DNA from: Caryophanales bacterium
Lineage (GTDB): Bacteria; Bacillota; Bacilli; CAJFEE01
Reading direction: 5' to 3'
NCBI GenBank assembly: GCA_029256085.1
Contig: JAQSYP010000002.1
Span: 390,426 to 454,425, forward strand
DNA length: 64,000 nucleotides
This document shows positions 1,639 to 45,945 of the stretch, piece after piece (positions within the stretch are counted from its first letter, which is position 1; each line of letters opens with the position of its first letter). Both the position numbers and the translations under genes were made by a program. The notes under the pieces were generated by a model, which saw only the letters and a list, made by a program, of their open reading frames with translations, had not been told where the DNA came from and made no database searches.

Positions 1639-1675
1639 AGGATGTTCTCCTTGTTTTCGACTTTATTTTACATTA

Positions 1676-1851: not shown

Positions 1852-1860
1852 TTTTGCATT

Positions 1861-5595: not shown

Positions 5596-5735
5596 ATTTC
5601 GTAACCGACTCCTAACAAGATGTGTTGTGATTCGATAAAATATTTACTAGATAAATATATTTTACCACTTTTCTCCAGAATAGATTAACAATTCAAAAAA
5701 AAGACATATTTTTAAGGAATTAATAATACATATCA

Positions 5736-5771
5736 ACAAAAAAAAGACCAGTATAAACTCCATACTAGTCT
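5736..5771 (-). terminator. Terminator of first cytochrome operon
   Basis: Stem 5745-5754/5762-5771 with a long U tract in minus-strand RNA. The hairpin overlaps the stop codon of the FN3 protein at 5765. Confidence 0.9.
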
Positions 5772-6973: not shown

Positions 6974-6974
6974 A

Positions 6975-7862
6975 TTACTCACCCTCTTCCATTTTAAATG
7001 CAAGAATACGGTTATTACCTCTATCTGTAATATAAATTTGATTTCCTTCTACTATTATATCATTTGGGTACTTATATTCTCTACCCTGCAATATTGTCTG
7101 AGACTGCTTTCCATCGATTGAGATTTTGTAGATTTTATGAACTAAAGAGTCTGCTAAATATATACTATCATCATCAACTGATATCCCTTTGGGAAGTCCC
7201 GCCTGTTTTAACGGAATGGAGTACATAAAATTCCCTTCAGTAGTAAAAACTTGTATCCTTTTATTTTGAGAGTCTGAAACAACTAATCTTTGACCATTTG
7301 GTGTTATTGCAAGTCCATTTGCAAAGTTTAATTGTCCTTCTCCACTGCCTTGAGTTCCAAATGACTTCTCAAGCTGGCCGTCTTTGTATATATGAATTTG
7401 ATGTGTAGAAACGTCACTAATAAAAAGTCGTCCTTTATCATCACTAACTATTGCTGCTGGCATCAAACCATCTTTACTTATTTCTGACTTAAAAGTTCCG
7501 TCTTCATCAAAAATTTGAACTCTACTATTCCTAAAATCTGCAATATATATACTTCCCGAGCCATCATAATCTATATCAACAGGATAGTTGAATTTTCCAG
7601 GGCTTGTTCCAGAACCACCAATTTTTTTGATGAAATCGCCACTTCTATCAGTAATAATTACTTCATTATTACCAGAATTAGTAATATATAAATTGCTTCC
7701 ATTTGTTGTGATAGCTATCGGTGCATCTAATTTAAAATCTTTATTACTCTCAATTGTTAACTGCTCTGGAGTAGACTTTTCAAATAATAAATATACTAGG
7801 CCACCTAATATAACTGTAACGATAATTGCCACAACAACTAATATATTTTTTTTGTTTTTCAC
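6975..7862 (-). CDS. Membrane-anchored NHL-repeat beta-propeller protein
   Basis: About 295 residues. The GTG at 7862 is chosen because AGGTGAT precedes it at 4-5 bases; the frame also allows GTG 7871, which lacks a site. One N-terminal membrane helix (about 8-27) is followed by roughly six NHL blades, recognisable as repeating P.D/I....G..Y[IV][AT]D..N.R[IV]..F units (for example IYIADFRNSRVQIF, IYITDRGNNRILAF). NHL propellers are usually protein- or ligand-docking scaffolds; no catalytic residues are apparent. It lies between the six-heme cytochrome and the FN3 protein in one operon, so its expected site is the outer face of the membrane, assisting assembly or anchoring of the secreted cytochromes (inference). 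It is a paralogue of the propellers at 9405 and 41331. Confidence 0.85.
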   Translation of the reverse strand: MKNKKNILVVVAIIVTVILGGLVYLLFEKSTPEQLTIESNKDFKLDAPIAITTNGSNLYITNSGNNEVIITDRSGDFIKKIGGSGTSPGKFNYPVDIDYDGSGSIYIADFRNSRVQIFDEDGTFKSEISKDGLMPAAIVSDDKGRLFISDVSTHQIHIYKDGQLEKSFGTQGSGEGQLNFANGLAITPNGQRLVVSDSQNKRIQVFTTEGNFMYSIPLKQAGLPKGISVDDDSIYLADSLVHKIYKISIDGKQSQTILQGREYKYPNDIIVEGNQIYITDRGNNRILAFKMEEGE

Positions 7863-7874
7863 ATTTATCACCTA

Positions 7875-9389
7875 TTATTTCTTATGACAGTCCTGACAAA
7901 CGCCCATACTATTTTTTCGTTTAAGCTTAGACTCACCTGTGTAGTAGTCATGAGACTTTGTACCGTGTGAAAAATGACACGTTAGACACATAATTTTTGG
8001 AGCATTTATTCCGATTTGAGATGTTGTATCAAGAGGTTCTTGCTTATTAATTGCTGGTGGATTCTTAGTTGTATCTGGTGAAACAGATCCATTATCCTTA
8101 AAAGTATATTCCCTTTTTATAGGATCATAAGTGAAACTTGCAGTAGCAGTTGTTGTACTTCCTATTAAACCAAATTGAGTTCTTATTGGTTCAGAAGCAC
8201 TTGGACCTGCTCTATATACCTTATAGCTTAACGCGTTACTAATACTTGGATAAACTAAATTCACTGTATTCGTAGCAGTTGCTCCAGTAACTGAAATACC
8301 TTTTATATATCCTTGGTGAGATTCACCTAACATATTTACTCCCGTAATAATATACCAATACTTGTTCGCTCCTGTAACGTTAAGAGTCCCACCCGTTGTC
8401 GAAAATGATGATTTTGGTAATGGATACACTCCAGACGGCACACCTTGTGTTGGTAATGTCGTAAATAAAGAGTTTGGATACGTATAAGATAGTGGCATTT
8501 CCTGAGGATCTGTTGTTGTAGTTCTAGATCCACCTGTTAATAGTGTTCCAACTGGGTGGCGATACTTTGTTGGATCATTCATATCAGTACCTTCATAATG
8601 ATAATAAACATAATCTTTATGACATGTTGAACAAAACTTATCGAATCCTCCACCGTATGAAACTACTTCAGCCTTAGTAAAACTGTTTTCTCGAATATCA
8701 GGCTGGTATAAGTTTGTTTTTGGATCTAGCTTACTCGCTACGAAAATACCATCTCTAGCATCAGCTAGCTTTTTGTTATGATTTCCAATTGTTACACCAT
8801 TTATTTCTGTAGCTAAGTTACGATAGTTCCCAGTACCATGAGGATTGTGGCAACTTGTACAAACTAACATTATTTGATCTTGTGTTCCACCTGGGGCTAT
8901 ATTATTATCCTCAATCATGTGAGTAGATGTGAATCCAGCACTAGTATTAAATCCTCCAGCTAGTGAATCAACAACAGTCCCTGCTGAAGAGTAATACAAC
9001 CCACCTTTAGAATCATACTTACTACCACGACCATCGTGACAGCTAAAACACAAATCTTTTCTTGTTGATTCGCGTAGAAGATTTGCTGATTTCCCCATAT
9101 GTGTAGAATGGCAATGCGCACAGGCATTAGTATTTTCCTTAAACGCAGCATGCGGATTTGATCTCTGGTCTAATATTCTCGTATTATTATGTTCAGGATT
9201 TGTATCAGGATCACTTGACCTAGGTGCTGTTTCTCCATCAATCAATAGAGGCGGCCCAGAAGGTGGATTCCATGTTGGTTCTGCAAAAGCTATATTATTA
9301 TATAGGTAAAAAGAGGTAGCAATAATTGTTGCTGTGCACAAGAATAATATTCTTAGATAGTTTTCTTTTAAAAGTTTCTTCATGTGCAT
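7875..9389 (-). CDS. Secreted hexaheme c-type cytochrome with beta-domain insert
   Basis: 504 residues from ATG 9389, preceded by GAGGAGGGG; the longer TTG start at 9404 would sit inside that site. Signal peptide about 1-37. Six CXXCH motifs: CAHCH, CFSCH, CTSCH, CSTCH, CLTCH, CQDCH. The first two form a paired module (HAAF...CAHCHSTH...LL...CFSCHDG) shared with the ten-heme and both seven-heme proteins. Between hemes 4 and 5 (about residues 325-435) lies a heme-free FN3-like beta domain (YKVYR, YTF strands). The protein ends four residues after the last CXXCH, with no anchor. Role: extracellular electron carrier next to two NHL propellers (inference). Identification as a cytochrome c is firm; partners and acceptor are not known. 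Confidence 0.9.
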   Translation of the reverse strand: MHMKKLLKENYLRILFLCTATIIATSFYLYNNIAFAEPTWNPPSGPPLLIDGETAPRSSDPDTNPEHNNTRILDQRSNPHAAFKENTNACAHCHSTHMGKSANLLRESTRKDLCFSCHDGRGSKYDSKGGLYYSSAGTVVDSLAGGFNTSAGFTSTHMIEDNNIAPGGTQDQIMLVCTSCHNPHGTGNYRNLATEINGVTIGNHNKKLADARDGIFVASKLDPKTNLYQPDIRENSFTKAEVVSYGGGFDKFCSTCHKDYVYYHYEGTDMNDPTKYRHPVGTLLTGGSRTTTTDPQEMPLSYTYPNSLFTTLPTQGVPSGVYPLPKSSFSTTGGTLNVTGANKYWYIITGVNMLGESHQGYIKGISVTGATATNTVNLVYPSISNALSYKVYRAGPSASEPIRTQFGLIGSTTTATASFTYDPIKREYTFKDNGSVSPDTTKNPPAINKQEPLDTTSQIGINAPKIMCLTCHFSHGTKSHDYYTGESKLKRKNSMGVCQDCHKK

Positions 9390-9404
9390 AGTTCCCCTCC
9401 TCAA

Positions 9405-10361
9405 TTAGTCGTTTACTTTATATATTACAATTCTACTATTGCCTTTATCTGCAACATACAAGTAGTTGTCTTTAATTTCTAACCCCTCTGGAATATAGAA
9501 TGATTCATTACTAGTTCCAACAACCCCAAGAGTAAAGTTTGCGCTTTCATATTGGTCAGCGATAATAATCTTATTACTAGTCGTGTCTGTTATATACATT
9601 AAGCCCTTATCGTCAGCGAAAATGCCCGATGGTGTGTTGATTTTTTTATCTGTTACAAGTATGTTTTTACCACTCTTATCGAATACTTGGATACGATTAT
9701 TGCCTGTATCAGTTACAAAAATATCACCTTTTTTATTAACGTGGATACCAAGTGGATACTGAAACTGTCCTCTTCCTTTACCTATCCCACCAAATCTAAG
9801 CTCTAAAAATCCATCTTTATTGAATCTTTTTACTGTTTGATCTGTTTTATCAATAATATATACATTATCTTTAGAATCGATAGTCATTGCTGTTGGAATA
9901 ATGCCAAACTTCTCATTATTCATTTTGTCTTTCGTATCAAAAAATCTAAGAAACTTCCCCTTCTTGTCATACACGGAAATTCTCATATTATTTAGTTCAG
10001 CTACAAATACTTCGTTCTGAGAATTTACCGCTACTCCTACAGGGTAGTCGAATTCATTTTTTTTATCACCAAATTCTCCAAACTTTCCAATGTATTCACC
10101 GTTGTTCTTAAAAATTTGTATTCTATGGTTATCCGAATCAGTTACGTAAACAGTACCATCATTAGAAACAGCTAGATCTATCGGATTCCGCATTTCATTG
10201 CCCTTTGGACCATATAATGCTAATTGGAATTCATATGCATTTCCGTTTCCAATACCAACTGGGTCATAGTCCTTGTAGAATAAGAACAATTGAACTCCTA
10301 TTCCAATAAAAAGTCCTGCTGTTAAACCTAGTATTATGCGTAAGAATAATTTTGTAGACAT
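9405..10361 (-). CDS. Membrane-anchored NHL-repeat beta-propeller protein
   Basis: 318 residues, ATG at 10361 with GAGGCGAG upstream. An N-terminal membrane helix (about 7-29) is followed by a six-bladed NHL propeller (VYVTDSDNHRIQIF, IFVTDTGNNRIQVF, LYVADKGNSRIVIY). It sits between the TPR protein (12-base gap) and the six-heme cytochrome (15-base gap), so the three are clearly co-transcribed. The same TPR-then-NHL order recurs at 42321/41331, which argues that the pair is a functional unit tied to multiheme cytochromes. Specific ligand unknown. Confidence 0.87.
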   Translation of the reverse strand: MSTKLFLRIILGLTAGLFIGIGVQLFLFYKDYDPVGIGNGNAYEFQLALYGPKGNEMRNPIDLAVSNDGTVYVTDSDNHRIQIFKNNGEYIGKFGEFGDKKNEFDYPVGVAVNSQNEVFVAELNNMRISVYDKKGKFLRFFDTKDKMNNEKFGIIPTAMTIDSKDNVYIIDKTDQTVKRFNKDGFLELRFGGIGKGRGQFQYPLGIHVNKKGDIFVTDTGNNRIQVFDKSGKNILVTDKKINTPSGIFADDKGLMYITDTTSNKIIIADQYESANFTLGVVGTSNESFYIPEGLEIKDNYLYVADKGNSRIVIYKVND

Positions 10362-10372
10362 GCTTCTCGCCT

Positions 10373-11050
10373 CTACTTTTCAGTGGCATTAAGGCGTTCT
10401 AATCCTTGTAATGCCTCTTTATAATCTGGGATGAACCTAAGTGCTTCCTTGTATTGTTGTATAGCTTGTTTAGGTTGATTATTTTTTTCATATGATAAAC
10501 CTAACTGATATATAATTGTTGCAGATGTAGGCTCAATTTTTAAACATTCCTCAAGATATTTTATAGACTTTAGGTAGAAACCCTCATCCATTGCTAACAT
10601 TGCTAATTCATAATTAGCGTATACATTTTGTTCATCGAGCTTTAGAATCTTTTGAAATTCTTCCTTCGCCATCTCGATTTCATTTTGATCCTTATAAACT
10701 AGTGCTAAAGCATATTTATAACTAATGTTCTCGGGTGCTAGTTTAACAGCCTTCTCAAATTGCCGTTCTGCTAGATTTAAATAAAAACGACTTTTACGCT
10801 CAACGGCAATGTCATGGTATGTTTTTCCAAGGTTTGCAATAGCTTCATAGTCATTTGGTGATTCTTGTACTTCATTTCTATATTGGCTTGCTAGATAGAA
10901 GTTATGATCCTTCTTTTCAAAATAAAAACGCTGCAACCCATATAATGCGAAAATAATAAAACCTATATATATAACAATTATTGGGTATGCAACCCGCTTG
11001 GAAATATATTCACGAATATTCTTTCGTTTTTGATCCTTTTCAGCATTCAT
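10373..11050 (-). CDS. TPR-repeat membrane protein
   Basis: 225 residues. One membrane helix near the N-terminus (about 21-43) is followed by at least four tetratricopeptide repeats (AIANLGKTYHDIA, YKYALALVYKDQ, ANYELAMLAMDEG, IIYQLGLSYEKN). The C-terminal DYKEALQGLERLN matches the end of the TPR protein at 42321 (LFKDAIEALERVE), so they are paralogues. First gene of the operon running down to 5765. The TPR domain would face outward, like the propellers it is encoded with, and probably helps organise or chaperone the cytochromes (inference). Confidence 0.87.
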   Translation of the reverse strand: MNAEKDQKRKNIREYISKRVAYPIIVIYIGFIIFALYGLQRFYFEKKDHNFYLASQYRNEVQESPNDYEAIANLGKTYHDIAVERKSRFYLNLAERQFEKAVKLAPENISYKYALALVYKDQNEIEMAKEEFQKILKLDEQNVYANYELAMLAMDEGFYLKSIKYLEECLKIEPTSATIIYQLGLSYEKNNQPKQAIQQYKEALRFIPDYKEALQGLERLNATEK

Positions 11051-33872: not shown

Positions 33873-35357
33873 TTAAGACTGTCTGTTTAGATTTAATACA
33901 TTCACACATAATAATCCTAGAAATATCCAGAACATTATTGAACTACCTATTACACCATCATTTACGATTCCTTGAACTAAGTAACCTATTACAGCTACAC
34001 CAAAAGTATATATATATACATTATCAGTTTTTGCAAATATCTTTTTTGTAGTGTAATAGAAACAATAACAAAATAGTGTCATTATGCTTAAGAATGTTAC
34101 AATTCCTCCACCATATAACCAACCTAAGTAAAGGCTGTGAGGTTTATCAACTATAATGCTACTACTATTAAGATTTGCTCTTTTATTTATATCGTCCTGA
34201 TTAATTGCATACGGTAACGTATCAAGTCCTTGACCAAAAATTGGTCGCTCTTTCCATGTCTCTAGTGTCATTTCCCAAATATATATTCTACCAGTCACTG
34301 GACCAAATTTTTGTTCAGGTAAGTCTGGTAAGTATTTGTCCTTCTCTTTTTGTTCTTCAGCATCATTCACCTGTGGACTAGAACTACTTTCAACCTTCTC
34401 TTCAAAAGGATTCTCAGGGATAAATGTACCGATTGATTCCGTCCATACCCATGGATTAAATGATGCAAGTCCATTAAATGAAGGAATCATTATGGTAATA
34501 GTTAAACCAATCAGGATAGCATTTTGCTTATTTAAGTATTTAATTGCAAAAACTATTAAACTCAGTACAAAAACTACTAAAAATGTTACAAAACCACTTT
34601 TAGACATTGATGTTAAAATAAGTATTCCAGTTAATACTGATGAAATAAAAGAAATAATTTTAATCTTGAAATCTGAATGTACTATCATAAGTGAGAAAAA
34701 CAATCCAAACAAGAATGATGAAGCTCCACTTATATAGTTAGGATTGGCTAAGGTTGTCCACAAAATAGAACCTTCACTGAATTTAGAGTCCGAGATTAAG
34801 CTAACAACCCAGTCAATATCTAATACACTAAACTTAAAGAACGCTAATATTCCAAAGGTAAAGTTTAAGACTACAAACGGAATTAACGAATATATAATTT
34901 TTAACTGGTTTTTGTTATCCCAATACATGTTCAGAACAATAAAGAAAACAAGGAGATAGCATGTATATGCTAATGTAGCTTCATAGTGTACAAAATGTCC
35001 AAAAAGAGCTGCATTCTTAAACGGTGATAATAAAGCTGATAATAGTATTGAGAAAATTATAGTCACTAGTATAAAGTTAATTTTAAACTCAACTAACTTA
35101 ATATAATTGTTGAATAATTGATAAAAAAACATTAATAATAGTGATAACGTTAAGAAACTCAAGTTAAAAAGTTTCCAAAACTCAAAAGCTTCGAATTTAG
35201 TTCCAGACATTAGTATAGTATAGTTTGTAATGACAGGGCTTATAAAGTCAATTTCATGTTTTCTTACTATATTTGGAACTATAAGTAAGATAAGCACTAT
35301 ATTGTAGACCATGAAGTTATTTATCGTAAATTGTTCCTGATTTTTTTTATAGTTCAA
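33873..35357 (-). CDS. Wzy/O-antigen-ligase-like polymerase
   Basis: 494 residues from TTG 35357 (AGAGAGGTG upstream). About eleven to twelve membrane helices, with one large extracytoplasmic loop (about 300-415) rich in charged residues and ending in ITGRIYIWEMTLETW-like RIYIWE and the GQGLDTLPYAINQDD stretch, typical of O-antigen ligase/polymerase (PF04932) proteins. A small TPR gene lies immediately upstream, a common partner of this class. Predicted to polymerise repeat units at the outer face. Confidence 0.88.
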   Translation of the reverse strand: MNYKKNQEQFTINNFMVYNIVLILLIVPNIVRKHEIDFISPVITNYTILMSGTKFEAFEFWKLFNLSFLTLSLLLMFFYQLFNNYIKLVEFKINFILVTIIFSILLSALLSPFKNAALFGHFVHYEATLAYTCYLLVFFIVLNMYWDNKNQLKIIYSLIPFVVLNFTFGILAFFKFSVLDIDWVVSLISDSKFSEGSILWTTLANPNYISGASSFLFGLFFSLMIVHSDFKIKIISFISSVLTGILILTSMSKSGFVTFLVVFVLSLIVFAIKYLNKQNAILIGLTITIMIPSFNGLASFNPWVWTESIGTFIPENPFEEKVESSSSPQVNDAEEQKEKDKYLPDLPEQKFGPVTGRIYIWEMTLETWKERPIFGQGLDTLPYAINQDDINKRANLNSSSIIVDKPHSLYLGWLYGGGIVTFLSIMTLFCYCFYYTTKKIFAKTDNVYIYTFGVAVIGYLVQGIVNDGVIGSSIMFWIFLGLLCVNVLNLNRQS

Positions 35358-35371
35358 AAAAATACACCTCT

Positions 35372-35833
35372 CTAGTTTGTTTCAATTAACAAGCTCTCAA
35401 TTTGGGCTAGTAATGTTGGATCTTGGTTATTTGCCTTTGCACTTTCTAAGTAGCTCTTTGCCTTTTCCTTTTCACCATTCATAATTAGTATTTGGCCGAA
35501 CATTGTGCAAAACTGTGGTTCAATTGATAGAATCGGATTTAATTTTATAGCTTCGTCAAAGTACTTAACAGATGTTTCGTAATCATTTGTAATTCTGTAA
35601 ATAATCCCAATGTTTATCTTTATCATGTAGCTTTTTGGATATTTTTCTTCAAGTTTTTGTAATTCAATTAATGAATTCGTTGGATCTGTGCCAATTTTCG
35701 TTACTACAGAGTTATAACTGTTTTGATCGTTATTAAATTGTTTATTTTGGTAATACCCTAATGTTTTAATAGCAATTAACATTGTTATTACTAAGGAGAA
35801 AATAATTATAAAATATTTTGTCGACTTTTCCAT
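35372..35833 (-). CDS. Small TPR-repeat membrane protein
   Basis: About 153 residues from ATG 35833, which follows GGGGAG; ATG 35845 is a possible alternative. An N-terminal membrane helix (about 5-27) precedes at least two TPRs (IKINIGIIYRITNDYETSVKYFDEAIKLNP, then a second degenerate one). First gene of the polysaccharide operon, 14 bases before the Wzy-like polymerase. It probably interacts with the polymerase and affects chain length or complex formation (inference). Confidence 0.82.
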   Translation of the reverse strand: MEKSTKYFIIIFSLVITMLIAIKTLGYYQNKQFNNDQNSYNSVVTKIGTDPTNSLIELQKLEEKYPKSYMIKINIGIIYRITNDYETSVKYFDEAIKLNPILSIEPQFCTMFGQILIMNGEKEKAKSYLESAKANNQDPTLLAQIESLLIETN

Positions 35834-35933
35834 CTGTCTCCCCATTTCCCTTTTTAATTTAATTGTATAGTACATACTAGTTGTTTTCTAGACTAAATAA
35901 TTAATTTTTCTTGACGTACTTTATAAAACCCAC

Positions 35934-35990: not shown

Positions 35991-38288
35991 TTAAGGCTTT
36001 ACTGTTAATAAGTTTACAGTGTATAACTTACCAGCGATTGTGAAGTTGTAAGTTACAGCTGGGTTAGTACCGTTTACAACATAAGGAGTTGTTAATGATA
36101 CAACAGCTTGTTTAGTAGCAGCATCAAATGTTACTGTACCAACAACAGTTGTTCCATCAGCAGCGTTTACTACATTGCTAGTAACTTTATCACCAGAAGC
36201 TAATAATCCCCATGAGTTAAATTCCATAACTAACTTTTGAACAGTTACAGGACCACCTGAAGGATAAACATCTAACACACCAGTTTGTGGATAGAAGTCA
36301 TCGTACTTACCACTGTTAGCTGAAGTTCCAGTTAAAGTGTCCTTGTAAGTTGAGATATATACTAAGCTTGGTGTAGCAGCAGGCTTACCAAAGCCCCATC
36401 TGTTTCCAGCAGTCCAAGAAGCGTTAGCATCCCATGAACCGTATTTTAATCCAACTTGCTTAGTTGCATCATTTTGGTACTCATCGTTGTTTACTAATGA
36501 ACTTGCGTGAGAAGAAGTATGACAACCCCAACATACTGACATGTTAGTGTAACGCTTAATTGCAGAAGAAGGGTTGATATCATCTAAGTGTGCTAATGCT
36601 GCAGTTGGAGTTGAACCTCCAGCTACCATTGAAGCATAGTCAGCACCTTTTGAATCTTTGAATAATAATGCGTTAGCTCCGTGAGACATGTGACAACGAG
36701 CACAAGAATAGTTGTCAGAGTTTGTTGTATGACGGAACTTTCCGTTATTTAATGCACCATCAGCCATATCAGCTGGAGTTTGAGCTACAGTACCAGTGTG
36801 ACAAGAGTTACATGTCATAGAAGTACCAGCGTTGTTATTATAGTGACCAGACGGTGCACCAGAAGATGCTAAATAGTCAACGTGACAAGCAGCACAGAAT
36901 TGAGAGAACTTAACACCCATTCCTGATTTTGAACCACCAGCAGCCATAACGTCACCGTTAACGTCTAAGTTACCGTTAGTCATTGCCGCGTTAGAAGTTA
37001 CTAATAAAGGAATGTCTTTTACGTTCGGTAAATATGTTGCAACTTGTACTAAGTCTAAGTCAACTACAGATACACGTGGAATTCTCATTTGTACTACATC
37101 AGCTAATGGAGCACCACTAGCGTATGCTTTTGCATAGTTGTAGCTAACACCTGTTGTTCTTGGAGTTACACCTAGTGAACCAGCTTCTGGAGAGTTTACT
37201 ACTCCGTCAGCGTTTGTATCTAATGCCATTGTTACACCAGCTTTGAACATCATTTGGTGTTCAAAAGTGTAAGGGTATTCAGCAGAGTTTAACCAAGGAG
37301 TTGTATCCATAGTATAAGGGAATACTGGAGCTCCTTCATCGTCTGCAGCTTTGTAAGCAGCAATAATAATTGTTCCGTCAGTTGTTGCAGCATCAAATTT
37401 AGATGCAGCAGTTCCGAACGCTACGTGATCTGCCTTTGTAGCCTTTACTAGCTTATACTTTGTAGGAGCAGCAGTACCAGCAGCACCAGTAATATCAGCG
37501 ATAGTTTGTACTGGATAACCTAATGTTTGCTCTGTAGTAGAGATTGTTGGGTTGTTAATTAAACCAAATCCACGATCTTTAACGTCTACAGTACCCATTC
37601 CGTTTGGATTGTAATGTAATAAACGATCAGAGTAAGAACCGTGTGGTGCGTGACAGCTAGCACAACTGAACTCGTCGCCCCACGTACCCTTTTCTCCATT
37701 TGTTAATTCACTTTCAGCACCAGTGTAATAACCACCAGGAGCAGCTTTTACACTTAACGCTTTATGTGTATCTACGTTATGCATAGATGCATCTTGTACT
37801 GATCTATCGAAACTACCTGCGTTAGATGCAACTACATCAGCAGTTGTGATAGAAGGGAAATCTGGATCAATTGCAACTAGTTCAGCTGGAGCATTATGAG
37901 TATAAAGCTCACCAGTTTTTACGTTGTAGAAACCTAAAGATCCATCATGACATGATAAACATGTTGATTGTGTACTAGTTCCGAATAATAATTGCTTTGC
38001 GTTCGCTGTATGCGTCATATGACATGATGCACATGAGTTTGTATTTTCTTGGAAATCTGTATGAGTCTTTTGGCCTTTTAAACTCTTTACAAGAGTTCCC
38101 ATAGCACCAACTTGACCTGTTTCGTTAGATTGGTTTGCTTTGTTTTGGTAAGCTAATGCTGAGCCAGTGAAAGCACCGATTAGTAACGACGTTGTTACTA
38201 AAGTTTTCGCTAATAAACCTTTCATTCCTTTTTCCTCCCTAGAACCTTTTTCTGTTTTCTCTTTATATTTAAGTAACTCGTTAACCAT
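35991..38288 (-). CDS. Secreted heptaheme c-type cytochrome, paralogue 1
   Basis: 765 residues. Seven CXXCH motifs at about residues 86 (CASCH), 109 (CLSCH), 209 (CASCH), 466 (CAACH), 492 (CNSCH), 529 (CARCH) and 583 (CWGCH). A heme-free segment of about 250 residues separates hemes 3 and 4, and a beta-rich heme-free domain lies at about 620-765. Signal peptide with a long charged n-region. Two strong ribosome binding sites exist in the same frame: one for ATG 38288, another (AGGGAGG) for ATG 38225, which starts a compact signal peptide (MKGLLAKTLV). No wall anchor. It is about three-quarters identical by eye to the next gene. Likely an abundant extracellular electron carrier. Two Spo0A-type boxes lie upstream; it has its own terminator. 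Confidence 0.9.
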   Translation of the reverse strand: MVNELLKYKEKTEKGSREEKGMKGLLAKTLVTTSLLIGAFTGSALAYQNKANQSNETGQVGAMGTLVKSLKGQKTHTDFQENTNSCASCHMTHTANAKQLLFGTSTQSTCLSCHDGSLGFYNVKTGELYTHNAPAELVAIDPDFPSITTADVVASNAGSFDRSVQDASMHNVDTHKALSVKAAPGGYYTGAESELTNGEKGTWGDEFSCASCHAPHGSYSDRLLHYNPNGMGTVDVKDRGFGLINNPTISTTEQTLGYPVQTIADITGAAGTAAPTKYKLVKATKADHVAFGTAASKFDAATTDGTIIIAAYKAADDEGAPVFPYTMDTTPWLNSAEYPYTFEHQMMFKAGVTMALDTNADGVVNSPEAGSLGVTPRTTGVSYNYAKAYASGAPLADVVQMRIPRVSVVDLDLVQVATYLPNVKDIPLLVTSNAAMTNGNLDVNGDVMAAGGSKSGMGVKFSQFCAACHVDYLASSGAPSGHYNNNAGTSMTCNSCHTGTVAQTPADMADGALNNGKFRHTTNSDNYSCARCHMSHGANALLFKDSKGADYASMVAGGSTPTAALAHLDDINPSSAIKRYTNMSVCWGCHTSSHASSLVNNDEYQNDATKQVGLKYGSWDANASWTAGNRWGFGKPAATPSLVYISTYKDTLTGTSANSGKYDDFYPQTGVLDVYPSGGPVTVQKLVMEFNSWGLLASGDKVTSNVVNAADGTTVVGTVTFDAATKQAVVSLTTPYVVNGTNPAVTYNFTIAGKLYTVNLLTVKP

Positions 38289-38390
38289 TTTTTTGCACCT
38301 CCCCTTTTGGCAAAGTATAATGAGTTAGAAAGAATAGTAGATATTTATCTCTCTAGACTACTAATCCCCTCGACATAATAATACATCTTT

Positions 38391-38457
38391 TGTCGAATCT
38401 TGTCAGTATATAAATTATCATGTCAAAAATAGTTCATTAATGTAATATTTTGTCGAA
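38391..38457. promoter_or_regulatory. Two Spo0A-box-like motifs upstream of heptaheme gene 1
   Basis: Exact TGTCGAA at 38391-38397 and 38451-38457, plus a one-mismatch copy at 38369-38375. They lie 80 to 170 bases upstream of the 38288 start. The rest of the 308-base intergenic region (38289-38596) is AT-rich and holds the paralogue's terminators. Confidence 0.45.
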
Positions 38458-38506
38458 AAAGATATTGCAAAATGAAAAATTACGTGTATAATTTTTAATC
38501 AAATTT

Positions 38507-38555
38507 ATCATAAAAAAGAACCCGTCAATTGCAATGACGGGTTCTTTTTTATGAT
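38507..38555 (-). terminator. Strong terminator downstream of heptaheme gene 2
   Basis: Perfect 21-base stem 38507-38527/38535-38555 with a seven-base loop. The AAAAAA and TTTTTT runs are inside the arms, so it can act on both strands. Confidence 0.92.
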
Positions 38556-38562
38556 AAGAAAA

Positions 38563-38584
38563 GGACTCCTTTAACAAGGAGTCC
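38563..38584 (-). terminator. Second terminator hairpin after heptaheme gene 2
   Basis: Perfect stem GGACTCCTT/AAGGAGTCC followed on the minus strand by UUUUCUU. It shares its stem core with the terminator of the neighbouring paralogue (35934-35965), a trace of the duplication. Confidence 0.8.
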
Positions 38585-38596
38585 CTCTGTGTATTA

Positions 38597-41053
38597 TTAG
38601 CTAGGTTTTACAGCAAGGAAGTTAATTGTGTATAACTTACCAGCAATTGTGAATGTGAATGTATTAGTATCAGGTCCAACCTCGTATTCTCTATCTAACT
38701 CTACAGTTACATGCTTTGCAGTGTCATCAAATACTAAGTTACCAACTGGAAGTCCGCTATCTACATCCGTAACTTGGAAGTAAGTATCAGCATTTGCAGC
38801 TGTTCCACCAACTTTAGCATCAGCACCTAAGCTAGCATACTTATCAGCAGTTGTTAATAATGGATAAGAAACGAATTCTAAAACTAATGTTTTTACTTTA
38901 GGATTTCCTCCACTTGGATACACATCTAACACACCAGTTGATGGATAGAAATCATCGTATTTACCACTATTTGCTGATGTTGCACCAGCTGCGATCATTT
39001 CGATTGCAGTTAATGCAGGTGTAGCTGCAGGCTTACCAAAGCCCCATCTGTTTCCAGCAGTCCATGATTTATTAGCATCCCATGTACCATACTTTAATCC
39101 AACTTGTTTAGTTGAATCCATTTGATACTCATCATTGTTAACTAATTGACTTGCATGAGATGAAGTATGACAACCCCAACATACAGACATGTTAGTGTAA
39201 CGCTTGATTGCAGATGATGGGTTAATATCATCTAAGTGTGCTAATGCAGCTCCAGGTGTTAAGCTACCACCCGCTACAGAAGTTAAGTATGCATAGTCAG
39301 CACCTTTTGAATCTTTGAATAATAATGCGTTTGATCCGTGAGACATGTGACAACGAGTACAAGAATAGTTGTCAGAGTTTGTTGTATGACGGAATTTACC
39401 GTTATCTAATACGTCGTCAGACATATCAGCTCCAGATGCAGTAACTGTACCTGTGTGACATGAGTTACAAGTCATAGATGTACCAGTATTGTTATTGTAG
39501 TGACCAGTTGGTGCACCAGAACTTGCTAAATAGTCAACGTGACAAGCAGCACAGAATCTAGAGAACTGAACACCTTTACCAGATTTTGAACCACCAGCAG
39601 CTAGGATATCACCATTAGCATCAAGGTCACCGTTTGTTAAAGCTGCGTTACTTGATACGTATAATGGAATATCTTTAACGTCTGGTAAATATGTTGCAAC
39701 TTGTACTAAATCTAAATCTACTACAGATACACGTGGAATTCTCATTGAATCTACGTCAGCTAATACAGCTCCACTAACGAAACCGTAAGCATAAGCATAG
39801 TTTACTCCTTCACTTCTAGGAGTTAAACCACGAGTTGCAACATTACCTTTTTCAGTAGTCGATAATGTACCATTATGGTCAGCATCAGTTACTTCAGTAT
39901 TATTAAGGATTCCATCACCGTTTAAGTCATAAGCCGCTACAGTGATTGAAGCGTCAGTGAACATCATTTGGTGTTCGAAATTATATGGATATTCTGCAGA
40001 ATTTAACCAAGGAGTGAAATCTGGCTCATAAGGATAAGCATATCCAGTAGAAGAATATGAATCTTCTTTTGCTTTATAAACAACAATTACTTGTTCTGTT
40101 GTAGAAAGTGTTGCAAATTGTGCTGATACACTAGCAGGAAGTGCAGAACCTGCTGCTGTTTTATGGTCAGCTACAGTACCTCTAATAACTTTGTAAAGTG
40201 TAGGAGCAGTTGAACTGCTAGTTCCGTTACCATTATCAGTACCATTTAATAATACATTGTATGCCTCAACAGTATAACCTAAAGTTTGCTCTGTTGTAGC
40301 AACTGTTGGATTGTTTAATAATCCAAAACCACGTTCCTTAACGTCTACAGTACCCATTCCATTTGGATTGTAGTGTAATAGACGGTCAGAATATGAACCG
40401 TGTGGTGCGTGACAGCTAGCACAAGAGAATTCGTCTCCCCACTTACCATCTTCACCATTTGTGTCTTCTTGAGCAGCACCAGTGTAGTTACCACCTGGAG
40501 CAGCCTTAACTCCTAATGACTTATGTGTGTCAACGTTATGCATTGAAGCATCTTGTACTGTTCTATCAAAGCTTCCTGCATTTGATGCTACAACATCAGC
40601 AGTTGTGATTGTTGGGAAACTTGAATCGATCTCTACTAATTCAGCTCCAGCATTATGAGTGTATAGTTCACCAGTTTTTACGTTGTAGAAACCAAGAGAT
40701 CCATCATGACACGCTAAACAAGTAGCTTGTGTGCTTGAACCGAATAATAATTGCTTAGCGTTCGCTGTATGCGTCATGTGACATGAAGCACAAGAGTTTG
40801 TGTTTTCTTGGAAATTTGTATGTGTTTGTTGACCTTTTAAAGATTTTACTAGTGTTCCTGCAGTACCTAATTGGCCAGTTTCGTTTGATTGATTAGCTTT
40901 GTTTTGATAAGCTAATGCAGAACCAGTGAAAGCACCAATTAACAACGCAGTTGTTACTAGCGTTTTAGTTAATAAACCTTTCATTCCTTTTTCCTCCCTA
41001 AAACCTTTTTCTGTTTTCTCTTTTTTATTTAATAATTTATTTACCCTTAGCAT
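38597..41053 (-). CDS. Secreted heptaheme c-type cytochrome, paralogue 2
   Basis: About 818 residues from ATG 41053 (GAGGAGGTGG upstream; the longer GTG frame start at 41068 lies before that site). Seven CXXCH: CASCH, CLACH, CASCH, CAACH, CNSCH, CTRCH, CWGCH, with the same spacing as paralogue 1. It differs by insertions in the heme-poor middle (a Ca-binding-like DLNGDGILNNTEVTDADHNG loop, dockerin/EF-hand-like DxNxDGxxxxxE) and by a different C-terminal beta domain. An internal second start with AGGGAGGAAAAAGG sits before MKGLLTKT, as in paralogue 1. It has its own promoter region with two TGTCGAA boxes and is followed by two terminators, so it is probably monocistronic. Confidence 0.9.
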   Translation of the reverse strand: MLRVNKLLNKKEKTEKGFREEKGMKGLLTKTLVTTALLIGAFTGSALAYQNKANQSNETGQLGTAGTLVKSLKGQQTHTNFQENTNSCASCHMTHTANAKQLLFGSSTQATCLACHDGSLGFYNVKTGELYTHNAGAELVEIDSSFPTITTADVVASNAGSFDRTVQDASMHNVDTHKSLGVKAAPGGNYTGAAQEDTNGEDGKWGDEFSCASCHAPHGSYSDRLLHYNPNGMGTVDVKERGFGLLNNPTVATTEQTLGYTVEAYNVLLNGTDNGNGTSSSTAPTLYKVIRGTVADHKTAAGSALPASVSAQFATLSTTEQVIVVYKAKEDSYSSTGYAYPYEPDFTPWLNSAEYPYNFEHQMMFTDASITVAAYDLNGDGILNNTEVTDADHNGTLSTTEKGNVATRGLTPRSEGVNYAYAYGFVSGAVLADVDSMRIPRVSVVDLDLVQVATYLPDVKDIPLYVSSNAALTNGDLDANGDILAAGGSKSGKGVQFSRFCAACHVDYLASSGAPTGHYNNNTGTSMTCNSCHTGTVTASGADMSDDVLDNGKFRHTTNSDNYSCTRCHMSHGSNALLFKDSKGADYAYLTSVAGGSLTPGAALAHLDDINPSSAIKRYTNMSVCWGCHTSSHASQLVNNDEYQMDSTKQVGLKYGTWDANKSWTAGNRWGFGKPAATPALTAIEMIAAGATSANSGKYDDFYPSTGVLDVYPSGGNPKVKTLVLEFVSYPLLTTADKYASLGADAKVGGTAANADTYFQVTDVDSGLPVGNLVFDDTAKHVTVELDREYEVGPDTNTFTFTIAGKLYTINFLAVKPS

Positions 41054-41181
41054 ATTCCACCTCCTCACTCGGGAAATCTCAAATTATAGATAAACGTACA
41101 AGACGTTAATCCCAAAATAGTAAGGACTAGACAACTCTCTGCTAGTCTATCTACAGTATAGAATTATCAGTGCGCGAAATT

Positions 41182-41201
41182 TGTCGAATCTTGCTGTCGA
41201 A
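41182..41201. promoter_or_regulatory. Two Spo0A-box-like motifs upstream of heptaheme gene 2
   Basis: Exact TGTCGAA at 41182-41188 and 41195-41201 (13-base register), about 130-150 bases upstream of the start at 41053. Confidence 0.45.
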
Positions 41202-41208
41202 TGTAACT

Positions 41209-41249
41209 TTCACAGTCTGTTCACAAATACTAATTAGTAAATGTTCACA
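41209..41249 (-). promoter_or_regulatory. ResD-like TGTGAA repeats upstream of heptaheme gene 2
   Basis: TTCACA occurs at 41209-41214, 41220-41225 and 41244-41249. The middle one, read on the minus strand as TTTGTGAAC, is one base from the B. subtilis ResD box TTTGTGAAT. ResD activates anaerobic respiratory genes. Confidence 0.3.
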
Positions 41250-41292
41250 ATCATTTGAGCCCAAAAAATTATAAGGACACGAGTACGCAAAA

Positions 41293-41324
41293 ACTCCCTG
41301 ATTTCAATAAAGAAATCAGGGAGT
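41293..41324 (-). terminator. Terminator of the NapC/NHL operon
   Basis: Perfect 13-base stem ACTCCCTGATTTC/GAAATCAGGGAGT with an A/T-rich tail, directly after the NHL gene stop at 41331. Confidence 0.9.
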
Positions 41325-41330
41325 AATTTT

Positions 41331-42299
41331 TTAGCGGAATACTTGAATACGATTTAATGCAGTATCTGCAATGTAAACGAAGTTGTTATCGTCTACAAAC
41401 AGACCTCTTGGTAGTGTAATTTGATCTTGTTCTGAACCACGCTCAGCAAATTCAAATAGTTTCTTACCTTCACTATCAAATCCATATGCAGTTGAGTTTA
41501 TCATATCTACAACTAATATACGACCTCTACTATCTACTCCAATACCACGTGGCTGAACAAAAATCGAAGTACCTTTACCATCTTTGCTTCCAGACCCGTT
41601 AACAATCATTAATTGCTTTCCATTTTTGTCATACTTAATAATATTGCTATCAGATGAATTAGAAACGTATACATTACCTTCGTCATCAACAGCTACTCCG
41701 TTTGGAGCGTTTAATTTAGACTTACCTTTTTTATCAACACCATATTCTTTAACCAATTTATTTGTCTTTAAATCATATGCTACGACTTTACCAAGACCAA
41801 CATCAGCAACATAAATCTTGTTGTCCTTAATTCTTATATCAGTTGGAGCAGAGAATGCTTCATCAGTTAAATATAAACTCTTAAATTTACCTTTTTTGTC
41901 AAAAATTTTAACAGCGCCATGCTTTAAATCTGCTATATAAATATTACCGTTTTCGTCGCCATCGATACCATAAGGCATACCGAATTTATCAAACGCAGTT
42001 CCTGCTTCACCGAATGAACGAAGCATAGAGCCCCCTACATCAAATACTACAATACGTGCATTTTGTGTATCTGATACATAAATTTCTCCATCGATATAAG
42101 CCATATCGTACGGATTATCTAATCCTTCTGATTCAAAACCACCATAGATTGAATACATATGTTTTGGTGGAGTATCAAGTGGTGTTACCATATCTGGAAG
42201 GATTAATCCCTCTTTCTTAAAGAAATACATATATGAAAAGAATAGTGAAACGATTATAAAAATCGCAACCATGGATTGGTGGGTTCTCTTTTTATTCAT
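41331..42299 (-). CDS. Membrane-anchored NHL-repeat beta-propeller protein
   Basis: 322 residues. An N-terminal membrane helix (about 10-27) is followed by six NHL blades with the DTQNARIVVF, IYIADLKHGAVKIF, IYVADVGLGKVVAY and VYIADTALNRIQVF strand-turn pattern. Paralogue of the propellers at 6975 and 9405. Last gene of the operon decaheme-dodecaheme-TPR-NHL, 21 bases after the TPR gene. Expected outside the membrane; inferred to help assemble or dock the secreted heptaheme proteins. Confidence 0.88.
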   Translation of the reverse strand: MNKKRTHQSMVAIFIIVSLFFSYMYFFKKEGLILPDMVTPLDTPPKHMYSIYGGFESEGLDNPYDMAYIDGEIYVSDTQNARIVVFDVGGSMLRSFGEAGTAFDKFGMPYGIDGDENGNIYIADLKHGAVKIFDKKGKFKSLYLTDEAFSAPTDIRIKDNKIYVADVGLGKVVAYDLKTNKLVKEYGVDKKGKSKLNAPNGVAVDDEGNVYVSNSSDSNIIKYDKNGKQLMIVNGSGSKDGKGTSIFVQPRGIGVDSRGRILVVDMINSTAYGFDSEGKKLFEFAERGSEQDQITLPRGLFVDDNNFVYIADTALNRIQVFR

Positions 42300-42320
42300 A
42301 GTCTTTTAGTCTCCCTTTAT

Positions 42321-43052
42321 CTACTTTAATTTCTTTTCCACTCGTTCAAGAGCTTCAATTGCATCTTTAAATAATGGATCGTACATTAAAGCCTCTTTAT
42401 ATACATCAGCTGCACCTTGATAATCTTCTCTTGCTTCAGCAATTTGACCAAGATTGTAAATTATTGTAGAGCTTCCTGGTTGAATATCATTTGCTTTACC
42501 TAATTGTTCAAGTGCTTTGTCATACATCTTCATTTCCTTATATGCCATACCTAAATACATAAAGCCCTGATAATCTTGAGGAGATATTTTAGTAGCTTTT
42601 AATAACGCTTCAGCTGCATCATCGTATTTCTTCGCATCCATATATGCAATACCTAAGTTTAGGTAAATGTTAAAATTATTTTTATCTATTTTTAGAGCAC
42701 GCTTGTAGTTATTAATTGCACTATCTACGTCACCAAGTTTTAAGTAAGTGAAACCTAGGTCAACTAGTACGTTTGCATCCTTTGGTTGCGCCTTTGCCTT
42801 TTGTTTATAGAAGTCCAATTGTTCTTCAAGTCTAATTTCTTCTGCTTTACCAGCAATATATTTCTCACCAAAATAATACCAACCTCCAGCTGAAACTGCG
42901 GCAGTTAAAATTATTAGAAAAGCCGCCAACCAAACTGGGTAGAACATGTTTGGATGCGTTTTTCTATTAGGTTTATTTTGCTTGTCATTCGCTTTTTCTA
43001 CTTTTGTATTTTCAGTAGATGTTGTGGGATTATTTTCTTTAATATTTTCCAT
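42321..43052 (-). CDS. TPR-repeat membrane protein
   Basis: 243 residues, ATG after AAAGGGAGA. A hydrophilic N-terminal tail (about 35 residues), one membrane helix (about 37-62), then four TPRs (VDLGFTYLKLGDVDSAINNYKRAL, IYLNLGIAYMDAKKYDDAAEALLKA and two more). Same architecture and C-terminal signature as the TPR protein at 10373. It lies between membrane cytochromes and the NHL propeller; a scaffold or assembly role in electron transfer is inferred from this repeated context. Confidence 0.88.
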   Translation of the reverse strand: MENIKENNPTTSTENTKVEKANDKQNKPNRKTHPNMFYPVWLAAFLIILTAAVSAGGWYYFGEKYIAGKAEEIRLEEQLDFYKQKAKAQPKDANVLVDLGFTYLKLGDVDSAINNYKRALKIDKNNFNIYLNLGIAYMDAKKYDDAAEALLKATKISPQDYQGFMYLGMAYKEMKMYDKALEQLGKANDIQPGSSTIIYNLGQIAEAREDYQGAADVYKEALMYDPLFKDAIEALERVEKKLK

Positions 43053-43079
43053 CTGTTTTCTCCCTTTCTAAATCCTAAT

Positions 43080-44258
43080 TTACTTTTTTTTGATTGCATC
43101 TTGAGTATGGCATTTTACGCAGTAACTTACTGTGTGACAATCAGCACATACCTCTTGAACTCTCGGTCTTATCGTTGTATCAACTGGAATCGGATGCCCA
43201 ACAAAATCATAACCAGTATGAGTAGCTGGATGGCATGATCCACAAGTTACCTTTGTTACGTACTTCTGATCCTTAGATACAATTTTGTAATCATGACATG
43301 TGAAGCATCTATCTGGCTGTTTTTTTACTAACTTCCAATGTTCAAAGTCTTTCTCGGCATGAGAGTTTGGCCGCTTCTTGTGACAATCAATACAATACGT
43401 ATTCGTCTTCGCATACTCTATCAACTGTTTATCTTTGGATTTGATTCCAACTGCTGCATTACCTAAAATCCTATCACTTGCCGATTGCACTTTAAATTCT
43501 GGAACAGGTTTTTTTGACATATACGAGTGACATATATTACATTCCTGTAATTCTTTAAAAGCCATTCTCCCATGTAGTCCAGTTTGTACGAATTTCTTAT
43601 CTCTGTGCGAGTAAGGTAACATCTTTGTTTTATGACATGCATCACAGTTAAGAGGTGCTTGTTTTGCTTCATGACAATTCATACACGTAGACATTTTTGG
43701 TCGTGTATGTTTTACGTCCTTCATCATTTCAATACCAACAAGCTTGTCCCATTTATCGTAATCAGTTTTGAAATTCGCGCCACGATCGTCAATTTCACCG
43801 TGGGCCACTCCACTATGACATTTTACACATGGAACCTTTTTATCTTTGTGCTTGTTGTGCGGAATTATTAAATCCCCGCTTGGCGAAACATTTCGGTTTT
43901 TCATCTTGTGACATCGTTCACAAGATTTATCAGGAATATCAGAATTCGATACAATTTGCGCTGGATATGAATCAGTTATTTTCGCATATACTTCTTTAAC
44001 GCCCATTACTTTTCTAATTGCTAGGTTCTTCATACCAGGCGCAATATGGCACTGTGTACATTCAACTTTACTGTGTGATGATGCTTTCCATGTATAAACC
44101 TCCGGACTCAAGTTGTGGCATGAAGCACAGAACTTTGATTGGGAGGTTTGATGGACACCTAAGTAAGCAAAAAGAAGAAAGAGGACAGAAAGTACGAACG
44201 TAACTGTTAGCCACTTGTAGAATTTCTCGTGTCGTCGGCTTCTAGGCTTAGTTTCCAT
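43080..44258 (-). CDS. NapC/NrfH-like membrane-anchored dodecaheme cytochrome c
   Basis: 392 residues. An N-terminal membrane helix (about 16-38) is followed by twelve CXXCH motifs: CASCH, CTQCH, CERCH, CVKCH, CMNCH, CDACH, CNICH, CIDCH, CFTCH, CGSCH, CADCH, CVKCH. The first four, with the FCASCHNLSPEVYTWKASSHSKVEC and CVKCHSGVAHG spacing, resemble NapC/NrfH quinol dehydrogenases; the rest is an extension. It likely passes electrons from menaquinol or from the decaheme partner to the outer cytochromes. Paralogue of the upstream gene (shared CHSGVAHG, PSGD and CHDY elements), 50 bases downstream of it in one operon. Confidence 0.92.
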   Translation of the reverse strand: METKPRSRRHEKFYKWLTVTFVLSVLFLLFAYLGVHQTSQSKFCASCHNLSPEVYTWKASSHSKVECTQCHIAPGMKNLAIRKVMGVKEVYAKITDSYPAQIVSNSDIPDKSCERCHKMKNRNVSPSGDLIIPHNKHKDKKVPCVKCHSGVAHGEIDDRGANFKTDYDKWDKLVGIEMMKDVKHTRPKMSTCMNCHEAKQAPLNCDACHKTKMLPYSHRDKKFVQTGLHGRMAFKELQECNICHSYMSKKPVPEFKVQSASDRILGNAAVGIKSKDKQLIEYAKTNTYCIDCHKKRPNSHAEKDFEHWKLVKKQPDRCFTCHDYKIVSKDQKYVTKVTCGSCHPATHTGYDFVGHPIPVDTTIRPRVQEVCADCHTVSYCVKCHTQDAIKKK

Positions 44259-44308
44259 ATGTGCTTTCCCCCACCTTTCTTCTTAGAATTGATATCTAGG
44301 TGTTTTGT

Positions 44309-45610
44309 TTATTTTACAATTCCTTCAACTTGCTTTAGACCTGTTCTGTGACAGAACTTACAATATACATCAGTAGGAGATTTAGTTCCTTCAATCTTAT
44401 TGTAGTCATGACAAGTTAAACAACCTTGAATTTGACGGTTTTGTTGTGCTCTACCAGGGTGACTTGTTAACCAAGTTCCATCAGTTCCGTGAGTTACTGG
44501 ACGGTTTGAGTGACAAGTACTACAGAATTTGCTATCGCGAGATTCAGTTTTAACTTCAATCATGTTTGGCTTGTATTTAATCTTAGAATCATTGTGGTTA
44601 ATTAACTTACGGATATCTTGCTTATCCATTGTTTTAATCCACTTTGAATCTTGGTGACAGTTGATACATTCAGGAAGTTCCTTCTCAGCTGTTCCACCGT
44701 GCGTGTATGGCCAAGGCTTATTTTGGTGAGTCTTTGGAGTTGCAACTTGTAAATGACAAGTCTTACATTCCATTGAAATCTTTACGTTCGCCTTTTGTTT
44801 ACCAATTGCTTGAAGAATAATCGTTTGTGTTTTTTCATTTGAACTTACAGGTTTAGCTTCACTATGGCTGTCTTTCTTAGCTTCTTCGCCATGTCCACCT
44901 TCTTCACCATGAGCTTCTTTCCATGGCTCTTTACCTGCGTTAACTTGAGCATGACATTCAATACATGTACCCATGTTAGGTTTCATGCTTGCGTCACCTA
45001 CTAATTTCTCAACGTTATCTTTAGTCCAGAAGTCGTAAGTGTCATTTGTGCTAATACCACGTTCTACAATCTTACCATGCGCAACACCTGAGTGACAGCT
45101 AATACAAGGAATGTCCTTTTTAACGTGACCATCATGGTTTGCTACAATATCACCTGATGCCGAAATTAGACGGTTCTCAGAGTGACATCTTAAACATGTT
45201 ACGTTTTCGATTGGATGTTTTGTCGCAATCGGATTCGGTTGTGTTTTTGTTACGTGCTTGTAAACTTCTCCAAGTGCAGCAACTTTATGTGTAATAAAGT
45301 TCTTAGCTCCTGGTGGAATGTGACAGTCTACACATGCGATTTGGTTATGTGATGAAATCTTATAAGTTTCTGCCTCTGGTGCCATTTCATGACACACATT
45401 CATACAGAACCAAGGTGTAGATGAACCAGCTAATGCTCCAGCTGTAAATGCAATCATTAATATGAAAGCTGCTACTAAAGAAAATCCTAACTTCCAACGA
45501 TTTGCAGGATCTTTCCAGTCTACTGCTCTAAGCTTTGCAATCATACCCATTTTTTTCTCTGTGGGCTGTTCTGACGCCTGGTCTTTTCCCCTCTTACGAA
45601 ATATACCCAT
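44309..45610 (-). CDS. NapC/NrfH-like membrane-anchored decaheme cytochrome c
   Basis: About 433 residues from ATG 45610 (GAGAGG nine bases upstream; TTG 45631 lies before that site). One membrane helix (about 47-70), then one CX3CH (CMNVCHEM) and nine CXXCH: CVDCH, CLRCH, CISCH, CIECH, CKTCH, CINCH, CSTCH, CLTCH, CKFCH. CH-x-M after the first heme matches the Met-ligated quinol-oxidising heme of NapC/NrfH/CymA proteins, though with an extra residue in the heme motif. A His/Glu-rich insert (HGEEGGHGEEAKKDSHSEAK) splits hemes 5 and 6. First gene of the operon; proposed menaquinol oxidase of the system. Confidence 0.92.
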   Translation of the reverse strand: MGIFRKRGKDQASEQPTEKKMGMIAKLRAVDWKDPANRWKLGFSLVAAFILMIAFTAGALAGSSTPWFCMNVCHEMAPEAETYKISSHNQIACVDCHIPPGAKNFITHKVAALGEVYKHVTKTQPNPIATKHPIENVTCLRCHSENRLISASGDIVANHDGHVKKDIPCISCHSGVAHGKIVERGISTNDTYDFWTKDNVEKLVGDASMKPNMGTCIECHAQVNAGKEPWKEAHGEEGGHGEEAKKDSHSEAKPVSSNEKTQTIILQAIGKQKANVKISMECKTCHLQVATPKTHQNKPWPYTHGGTAEKELPECINCHQDSKWIKTMDKQDIRKLINHNDSKIKYKPNMIEVKTESRDSKFCSTCHSNRPVTHGTDGTWLTSHPGRAQQNRQIQGCLTCHDYNKIEGTKSPTDVYCKFCHRTGLKQVEGIVK

Positions 45611-45945
45611 TGTTGAAAACCTCTCTTTCAAACGTGCTTTTACCCCTAAAACATAATAACCCTTTTCTATTTGTCTATCACATTATGATTATAGAACATT
45701 ATCACGTTGTTAATTTACTAAAAAAGTGAACAATGTTTGATACAAATATGACGAAATTGTGTCGAGAGTTTTAGGTTTTTGCTTGTTTTATATTTTTTAT
45801 CTTTATTTTTTCTGATACAAATTACCCTTTTCCCCTAATCCTTTCCCCTTTCTGTAGAATTATTACCAAGCTTCAAACGTATTATTTAAAAGTAGTTGCA
45901 AATAATACATGTAGAAAACAAGATTAACGCTTTGGAGGGATAAAT
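45611..45945. other. Divergent intergenic region
   Basis: 335 bases between the decaheme gene (minus) and the small membrane protein (plus). It contains a Spo0A-consensus TGACGAA at 45749-45755, a near-copy TGTCGAG at 45760-45766, and a pyrimidine-rich tract. On the minus strand that tract carries G-runs at 45845-45848, 45840-45841, 45832-45835 and 45825-45827. No gene seen. Confidence 0.5.
45749..45766. promoter_or_regulatory. Spo0A-box-like motifs upstream of decaheme operon
   Basis: TGACGAA (fits TGNCGAA) at 45749-45755 and TGTCGAG at 45760-45766, about 140 bases upstream of the decaheme start at 45610. Confidence 0.3.

Follow-up and report, generated by a model that had tools for sequence, protein, structure and literature searches.

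An OmcS-type heptaheme cytochrome pair beside a NapC/NrfH-type membrane cytochrome operon in a Gram-positive bacterium

Six genes with 36 heme motifs

The 64,000-nucleotide stretch analysed here (the window) covers positions 390,426 to 454,425 of contig JAQSYP010000002.1, from the Caryophanales bacterium assembly GCA_029256085.1, and holds a locus that an earlier note, made from the letters alone, had described as a Gram-positive extracellular electron-transfer system. Its six open reading frames were confirmed, all on the minus strand. In the direction of transcription they encode N10, a 10-heme NapC/NrfH-type membrane cytochrome of 440 residues (44309..45631; Pfam Cytochrom_NNT 4e-21; helix at residues 50-68); N12, its 12-heme counterpart (43080..44258; Pfam Cytochrom_NNT 7e-19); a membrane-anchored TPR protein, predicted to be an assembly or docking factor (42321..43052; Pfam TPR; helix 36-54); a membrane-anchored NHL beta-propeller, a predicted assembly or secretion factor (41331..42299; Pfam NHL 4e-26; helix 9-27); and two secreted heptaheme OmcS-type cytochromes, cytochrome 1 (38597..41068) and cytochrome 2 (35991..38288). 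The two heptahemes, N12 and N10 have CXXCH counts of 7, 7, 12 and 9 plus one CX3CH, or 7 + 7 + 12 + 10 = 36 heme motifs; the total of the earlier note is correct because the tenth motif of the 440-residue protein is this CX3CH (CMNVCH). Residue-shuffled sequences yielded 0.002-0.09 heme motifs per protein. The six genes, the membrane helices (a single N-terminal one in each of the N10, N12, TPR and NHL proteins) and the operon spacing also agree with what had been noted.

Gaps of 21-50 bp separate the N10, N12, TPR and NHL genes, and a terminator-like hairpin (41324..41293) lies immediately 3' of the NHL gene; each heptaheme gene is preceded by a separate intergenic region of 262-308 bp. Separate transcription would allow the secreted cytochromes to be produced in excess. 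Translation of the heptahemes probably begins not at the first in-frame start but at ~40984 for cytochrome 1 and ~38225 for cytochrome 2, where the proteins open with MKGLL... and a canonical-looking signal peptide (signal peptides were judged by eye). An Rfam search of the locus gave sub-threshold, terminator-driven matches alone and no riboswitch, and no convincing motif was common to the intergenic regions of the locus.

The heptahemes carry an OmcS-type core

The heptahemes form a tandem pair, 75% identical, and each uses all 14 of its cysteines in its seven heme motifs (the CXXCH count was repeated on the 765-residue protein). Single heptaheme sequences retrieved nothing significant from the PDB, and OmcS went undetected. 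Profiles of the family to which the heptahemes belong do find OmcS (6ef8) in the PDB, as collinear pieces with E values of 4.4e-6 and 1.4e-7. For a profile of a CwcA-like sister family (a hexaheme from a second cluster in the window and its relatives, including a protein from a Thermincola metagenome-assembled genome, MAG) the match to OmcS has an E value of 3.9e-18, obtained against OmcS by itself with the search space fixed at that of the PDB; the OmcS sequence used is a 100% match to 6ef8. Of the cytochromes that the earlier note had named for comparison, OmcS was thereby found; OcwA, OmhA and OmcZ had no match among the profile matches at E 0.1 or below, and OmcE stood at 0.18. Identity with an OcwA/OmhA-type terminal reductase or with OmcZ was rejected for lack of such a match.

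All six core CXXCH motifs are collinear with those of OmcS in hidden Markov model and multiple alignments alike. Exactly 12 histidines are invariant in an alignment of 69 sequences, six of them within CXXCH and six elsewhere. When the family was aligned jointly with OmcS and the CwcA-like group (83 sequences), 11 of the 12 fell on OmcS His13, 16, 51, 110, 144, 147, 243, 257, 332, 335 and 404; the twelfth, 10 residues before heme 1, lies near OmcS H2 but was left unmatched by the aligner. OmcS and the family core also agree in having a histidine at +3 after the CXXCH of hemes 1, 3 and 5, with no conserved one at hemes 2, 4 and 6. The equivalent of OmcS H16, which we take to be the ligand donated to the neighbouring subunit, is invariant in 69/69 and 83/83 sequences; in cytochrome 2 it is H93 (within CASCHMTH, codon at 38010..38012, minus strand), the proposed inter-subunit heme ligand. 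In OmcS itself there are 12 His ligands, of which the chain provides 11 and a neighbouring subunit the remaining one (PMC6584659).

These data overturn the suggestion of the earlier note that the heptahemes do not resemble OmcS and may represent a new wire architecture: the OmcS heme-and-ligand pattern is present, and in order. The split of the hemes into 3 + 4 by a gap of about 250 residues, which the note had taken as the distinction, is sound as a description, with 256 or 290 residues between hemes 3 and 4 in the window pair. The same segment has 74-319 residues in relatives and 99 in OmcS, and since the gap is a variable insert, the contrast with OmcS falls.

As read from their sequences, the heptahemes consist of a six-heme core of the OmcS type to which one heme, an enlarged heme 3-4 domain and a C-terminal beta domain have been added. 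Relatives with six hemes occur in the same genome (two more, L012 and L013) and in a genome of the same class, G010 (three). Aligned with these, the window pair has the same core plus a CNSCH (position 493) that falls between the fourth and fifth core hemes (36798..36812 in cytochrome 2, minus strand; equivalent at 39455-39469 in cytochrome 1), and a C-terminal extension. Both cysteines of the extra motif are confined to the window pair among the 69 aligned sequences. Other matches of the family comprise 105 proteins with six motifs, one with five, a fragment with two and three with eight, the last being weak matches to different proteins; by motif count, the window pair are the sole seven-heme members among about 110 relatives. 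The tree groups them with the two hexahemes of their own genome (support 0.98), and the simplest account is thus that the window lineage acquired the seventh heme.

In cytochrome 2, the domain inserted between hemes 3 and 4 (approximately 36996..37520, minus strand) varies in length among relatives and is the best-predicted part of the AlphaFold2 (AF2) model, with beta-rich blocks reaching a predicted local distance difference test score (pLDDT) of 95; over most of the heme regions the confidence is low. The C-terminal beta domain (approximately 35991..36365, minus strand) shows strands in the AF2 model and is absent from most relatives; the C-terminal tails of the window pair, 175 and 189 residues, are among the three longest in all relatives. 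Foldseek found no significant match for the heptaheme AF2 model, and its weak matches, those of the C-terminal domain included, were mostly immunoglobulin (Ig)-like. At the other extreme of size, some Neobacillus/Bacillus loci (L087, L090, L094 and L099) hold three tandem compact hexahemes of 380-420 residues, near the length of OmcS.

A proposed membrane-to-wire operon is conserved in Bacillota

N10 and N12 each combine a NapC/NirT domain and an N-terminal membrane helix with 10 and 12 hemes, respectively. NapC/NrfH proteins oxidise quinol. On this ground, and given the biochemical work on the Thermincola protein ImdcA (PMC7911101), N10 and N12 are predicted to oxidise menaquinol. Heme 1 of N10 is a CX3CH in the window protein alone (1/66; none of 65 relatives), followed by the CHEM found in 64/66, and 78/80 members of the N12 family have 12 hemes.

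Seventy-seven related loci were collected from genomes that include Neobacillus, Mesobacillus, Bacillus, Evansella, Desulfosporosinus, Thermincola, Dethiobacter and others; the contig scan used a diverse alignment, an earlier one with signal-peptide patterns having confirmed nothing. The order N12-TPR-NHL-hexaheme is kept in 72/77 of these Bacillota loci and the full N10-N12-TPR-NHL-hexaheme in 57/77, and in 27 pairs of neighbouring genes both encode members of the hexaheme family to which the heptahemes belong. In the class as sampled the family is patchy, being present in 3/399 class-level genomes. A surface cytochrome with 7-8 hemes, which follows the hexaheme in most relatives, is missing from the window operon. 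The constant linkage of the TPR and NHL genes suggests that their products act in export or assembly, and a similar role has been suggested for the NHL- and TPR-repeat proteins of Dethiobacter cytochrome clusters (PMC10376724).

The Thermincola MAG has a cluster in the order 10h-12h-17h-TPR-NHL-6h (numbers of hemes), whose 10-heme protein has MGIRDKF near its start. In the published Thermincola cluster, for which a polymer across the wall was proposed, ImdcA (Tfer_0070/TherJR_1117) has the N-terminus GIRD and CwcA is Tfer_0075/TherJR_1122 (Faustino et al., PMC7911101). Given these termini and the gene positions of ImdcA and CwcA, the MAG cluster very probably corresponds to the published one, and the main cluster of the window is a paralogous form of it. 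In clusters of the Thermincola type (L128, L129) the 17-heme gene separates the 12-heme gene from the TPR gene, and cytochromes with 14, 22 and 36 CXXCH are encoded downstream.

A likely conduit across the wall and its alternatives

We consider it likely that the locus encodes a Gram-positive outward conduit. N10 and N12, anchored in the cytoplasmic membrane, would take electrons from menaquinol and pass them to the secreted heptahemes, the wire subunits of the window operon. These would join head to tail, a histidine of one subunit ligating a heme of the next, to give a heme wire that spans the cell wall and reaches the outside, and the membrane-anchored TPR and NHL proteins would help its export or assembly. 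The sequences themselves show which families are present, how many hemes they carry, the pattern of ligands, the order of the genes and their conservation; polymerisation, wall crossing and the direction of electron flow we infer, the wire step from the OmcS ligand pattern.

Several observations weigh against this model. The polymerisation of CwcA is a published homology model only (PMC7911101), and the role of cytochrome filaments as respiratory conduits is itself disputed (PMC11077965). At heme 1, N12 has CHNL where nearly all relatives have CHxM, which therefore holds for N10 only. The AF2 heme core is of low confidence, with a pLDDT of 62 for the heptaheme and 55.5 for a compact relative of 339 residues. 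Finally, the seventh heme, the enlarged insert and the C-terminal domain could block head-to-tail packing.

The pathway might be the same with heptahemes that do not polymerise. As monomers or oligomers bound to the wall they would act as relays, or as terminal reductases in the role that has been proposed for OcwA/OmhA, electrons hopping among crowded molecules. The extra domains and the seventh heme could give surface exposure, and because the window operon has no 7-8-heme surface cytochrome the heptahemes might also fill that role; Thermincola CwcA was obtained solely in an insoluble state (PMC7911101). Yet the equivalent of the inter-subunit ligand is invariant throughout the joint alignment, the profiles find OmcS and none of OcwA, OmhA and OmcZ, and the tandem copies suit a structural subunit, so we regard this alternative as rather unlikely. 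Electron flow could also run inward: Fe(II), a cathode, a syntrophic partner or some other donor outside the cell would be oxidised and the quinone pool fed. Its direction is not fixed by sequence, but the closest studied cluster belongs to Fe(III)/anode respirers (PMC7911101), and the inward direction seems highly improbable.

That the locus serves dissimilatory reduction of nitrite, tetrathionate or sulfite, N10 and N12 being the quinol dehydrogenases of the reductase, in keeping with the NrfH/NapC domain matches of both membrane cytochromes and the multiheme reductases of the same genome, is barely credible: the heptahemes have no CXXCK and no spare cysteines, their PDB matches to NrfA stand at E 0.2, no core heme looks open for catalysis because the conserved histidines suffice for bis-His ligation of all six, and N10 and N12 need not partner NrfA-like proteins, since the genome has two ordinary NrfH-NrfA-like pairs, next to each other, at another place (L118:11004-15190, C10; dissimilatory nitrite reduction to ammonium). 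We rejected NrfAH-type nitrite reductase and octaheme tetrathionate/sulfite reductase on the motif, cysteine and NrfA results, and the homology to a soluble nitrite or tetrathionate reductase that would have told against the earlier note was looked for and not found.

The locus bears on how electrons get through the thick wall of a Gram-positive cell when there is no porin: the OmcS ligand set is conserved in a large Bacillota family that has a fixed, putative membrane-to-wire operon. The TPR and NHL proteins can be named as assembly candidates, and the heptaheme pair indicates that such a putative wire subunit can acquire a further heme and new domains, a point relevant to wire design. Since a large share of the family comes from Neobacillus and Bacillus, with some complete genomes and named strains, the wire question is testable in organisms likely to be easier to grow than Thermincola.

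Neighbouring genes and genome background

Directly downstream of the heptahemes, also on the minus strand, lie a small membrane-anchored TPR protein (35372..35875; Pfam TPR; helix 22-40) and a Wzy_C membrane protein of the O-antigen ligase/O-oligosaccharyltransferase type (33873..35357; Pfam Wzy_C 4e-18), whose function is predicted; next come genes for a sugar transferase and for glycosyltransferases. G010 repeats the order hexaheme-TPR-Wzy_C-glycosyltransferases, which was seen in none of the other loci. It is possible that the ligase/TPR pair glycosylates the cytochromes, or that exopolysaccharide holds them. A more elaborate filament, in which the seventh heme would be a side exit, the extra domains would coat an OmcS-type wire and the ligase/TPR pair would attach glycans, is distinctly unlikely; it would amount to a branched, glycosylated cytochrome wire fit to lie within a Gram-positive wall. 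A large polysaccharide biosynthesis cluster (window 13197-33841) separates the two cytochrome clusters of the window, and glycosyltransferases likewise flank a cytochrome cluster in G010 (L015).

The second, related cluster (1861-11050, minus strand) had been overlooked in the earlier note. It encodes a TPR protein (10373..11050), an NHL propeller (9405..10361), the 509-residue OmcS/CwcA-type hexaheme with 6 CXXCH whose family profile matched OmcS best (7875..9404), a second NHL propeller (6975..7871), an fn3 surface protein (5765..7003; Pfam fn3) and a surface cytochrome of 1244 residues with fn3/Ig modules, 9 CXXCH and one CX3CH (1861..5595). The order of the TPR and both NHL genes is the same in G013, where the two clusters are adjacent to each other. 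The tree of the 83-sequence set leaves open whether the CwcA-like proteins are one clade. Window 1-5595 and L012:11951-18519 hold three tandem large fn3/Ig surface cytochromes, probably decahemes, each with 9 CXXCH and one CX3CH (CYLTCH, CSPSCH and CNPSCH).

No Omp85 was found in the genome, which is consistent with a single membrane (monoderm); together with the relatives in Bacilli, this bears out the Gram-positive part of the earlier note's reading. Its view of an extracellular electron-transfer locus, in which quinol-oxidising NapC/NrfH-type cytochromes would feed secreted cytochromes that may polymerise, is supported as well. Heme is presumably attached by an apparently complete System I (Ccm), encoded elsewhere in the genome (L116:7711-14995, C15): CcmF and CcmC have neighbours that by eye appear to be CcmE, CcmA, CcmB, CcmG and CcmH. 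ResB-type cytochrome maturation was sought in the genome and not found. System I without ResB in a Bacilli-related genome is unlike Bacillus subtilis.

Comparison with known systems

N10 and N12 resemble the NrfH/NapC quinol dehydrogenases in their N-terminal helix and NapC/NirT domain; they differ in falling under the NCBIfam NrfH and NapC cut-offs, and in having 6-8 more hemes, carried by a C-terminal extension. The heptahemes share with OmcS of Geobacter sulfurreducens (6ef8/6nef) the order of six CXXCH, 11/12 histidines, the +3 His pattern and the motifs APGG...CxSCHxPHG and N-SS-...-R. They depart from it in the seventh heme, the longer heme 3-4 segment and the C-terminal beta domain, and their setting differs too, with a Gram-positive host and an adjoining membrane-cytochrome operon.

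The operons of Neobacillus, Mesobacillus, Desulfosporosinus and Dethiobacter have the same N10-N12-TPR-NHL-hexaheme or N12-TPR-NHL-hexaheme arrangement. Their wire-type cytochrome has six hemes (five in one case) and lacks the seventh, and the 7-8-heme surface cytochrome mostly comes next. An earlier account of the Neobacillus-type operon may exist outside the open-licence literature.

The closest studied system is the Thermincola ImdcA-CwcA cluster, with a 10-heme and a 12-heme cytochrome, TPR, NHL and an OmcS-type hexaheme in the same order as in the window and with N10 matching ImdcA in position and in architecture. The window cluster has no 17-heme gene; its candidate wire protein belongs to another subfamily, with seven hemes, extra domains and two copies; and its CwcA-like hexaheme sits in the separate cluster at 1.9-11 kb. 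The type of system is thus already known from Thermincola ImdcA/CwcA, and what is new here is the tandem pair of seven-heme putative wire subunits beside an O-antigen-ligase/TPR pair.

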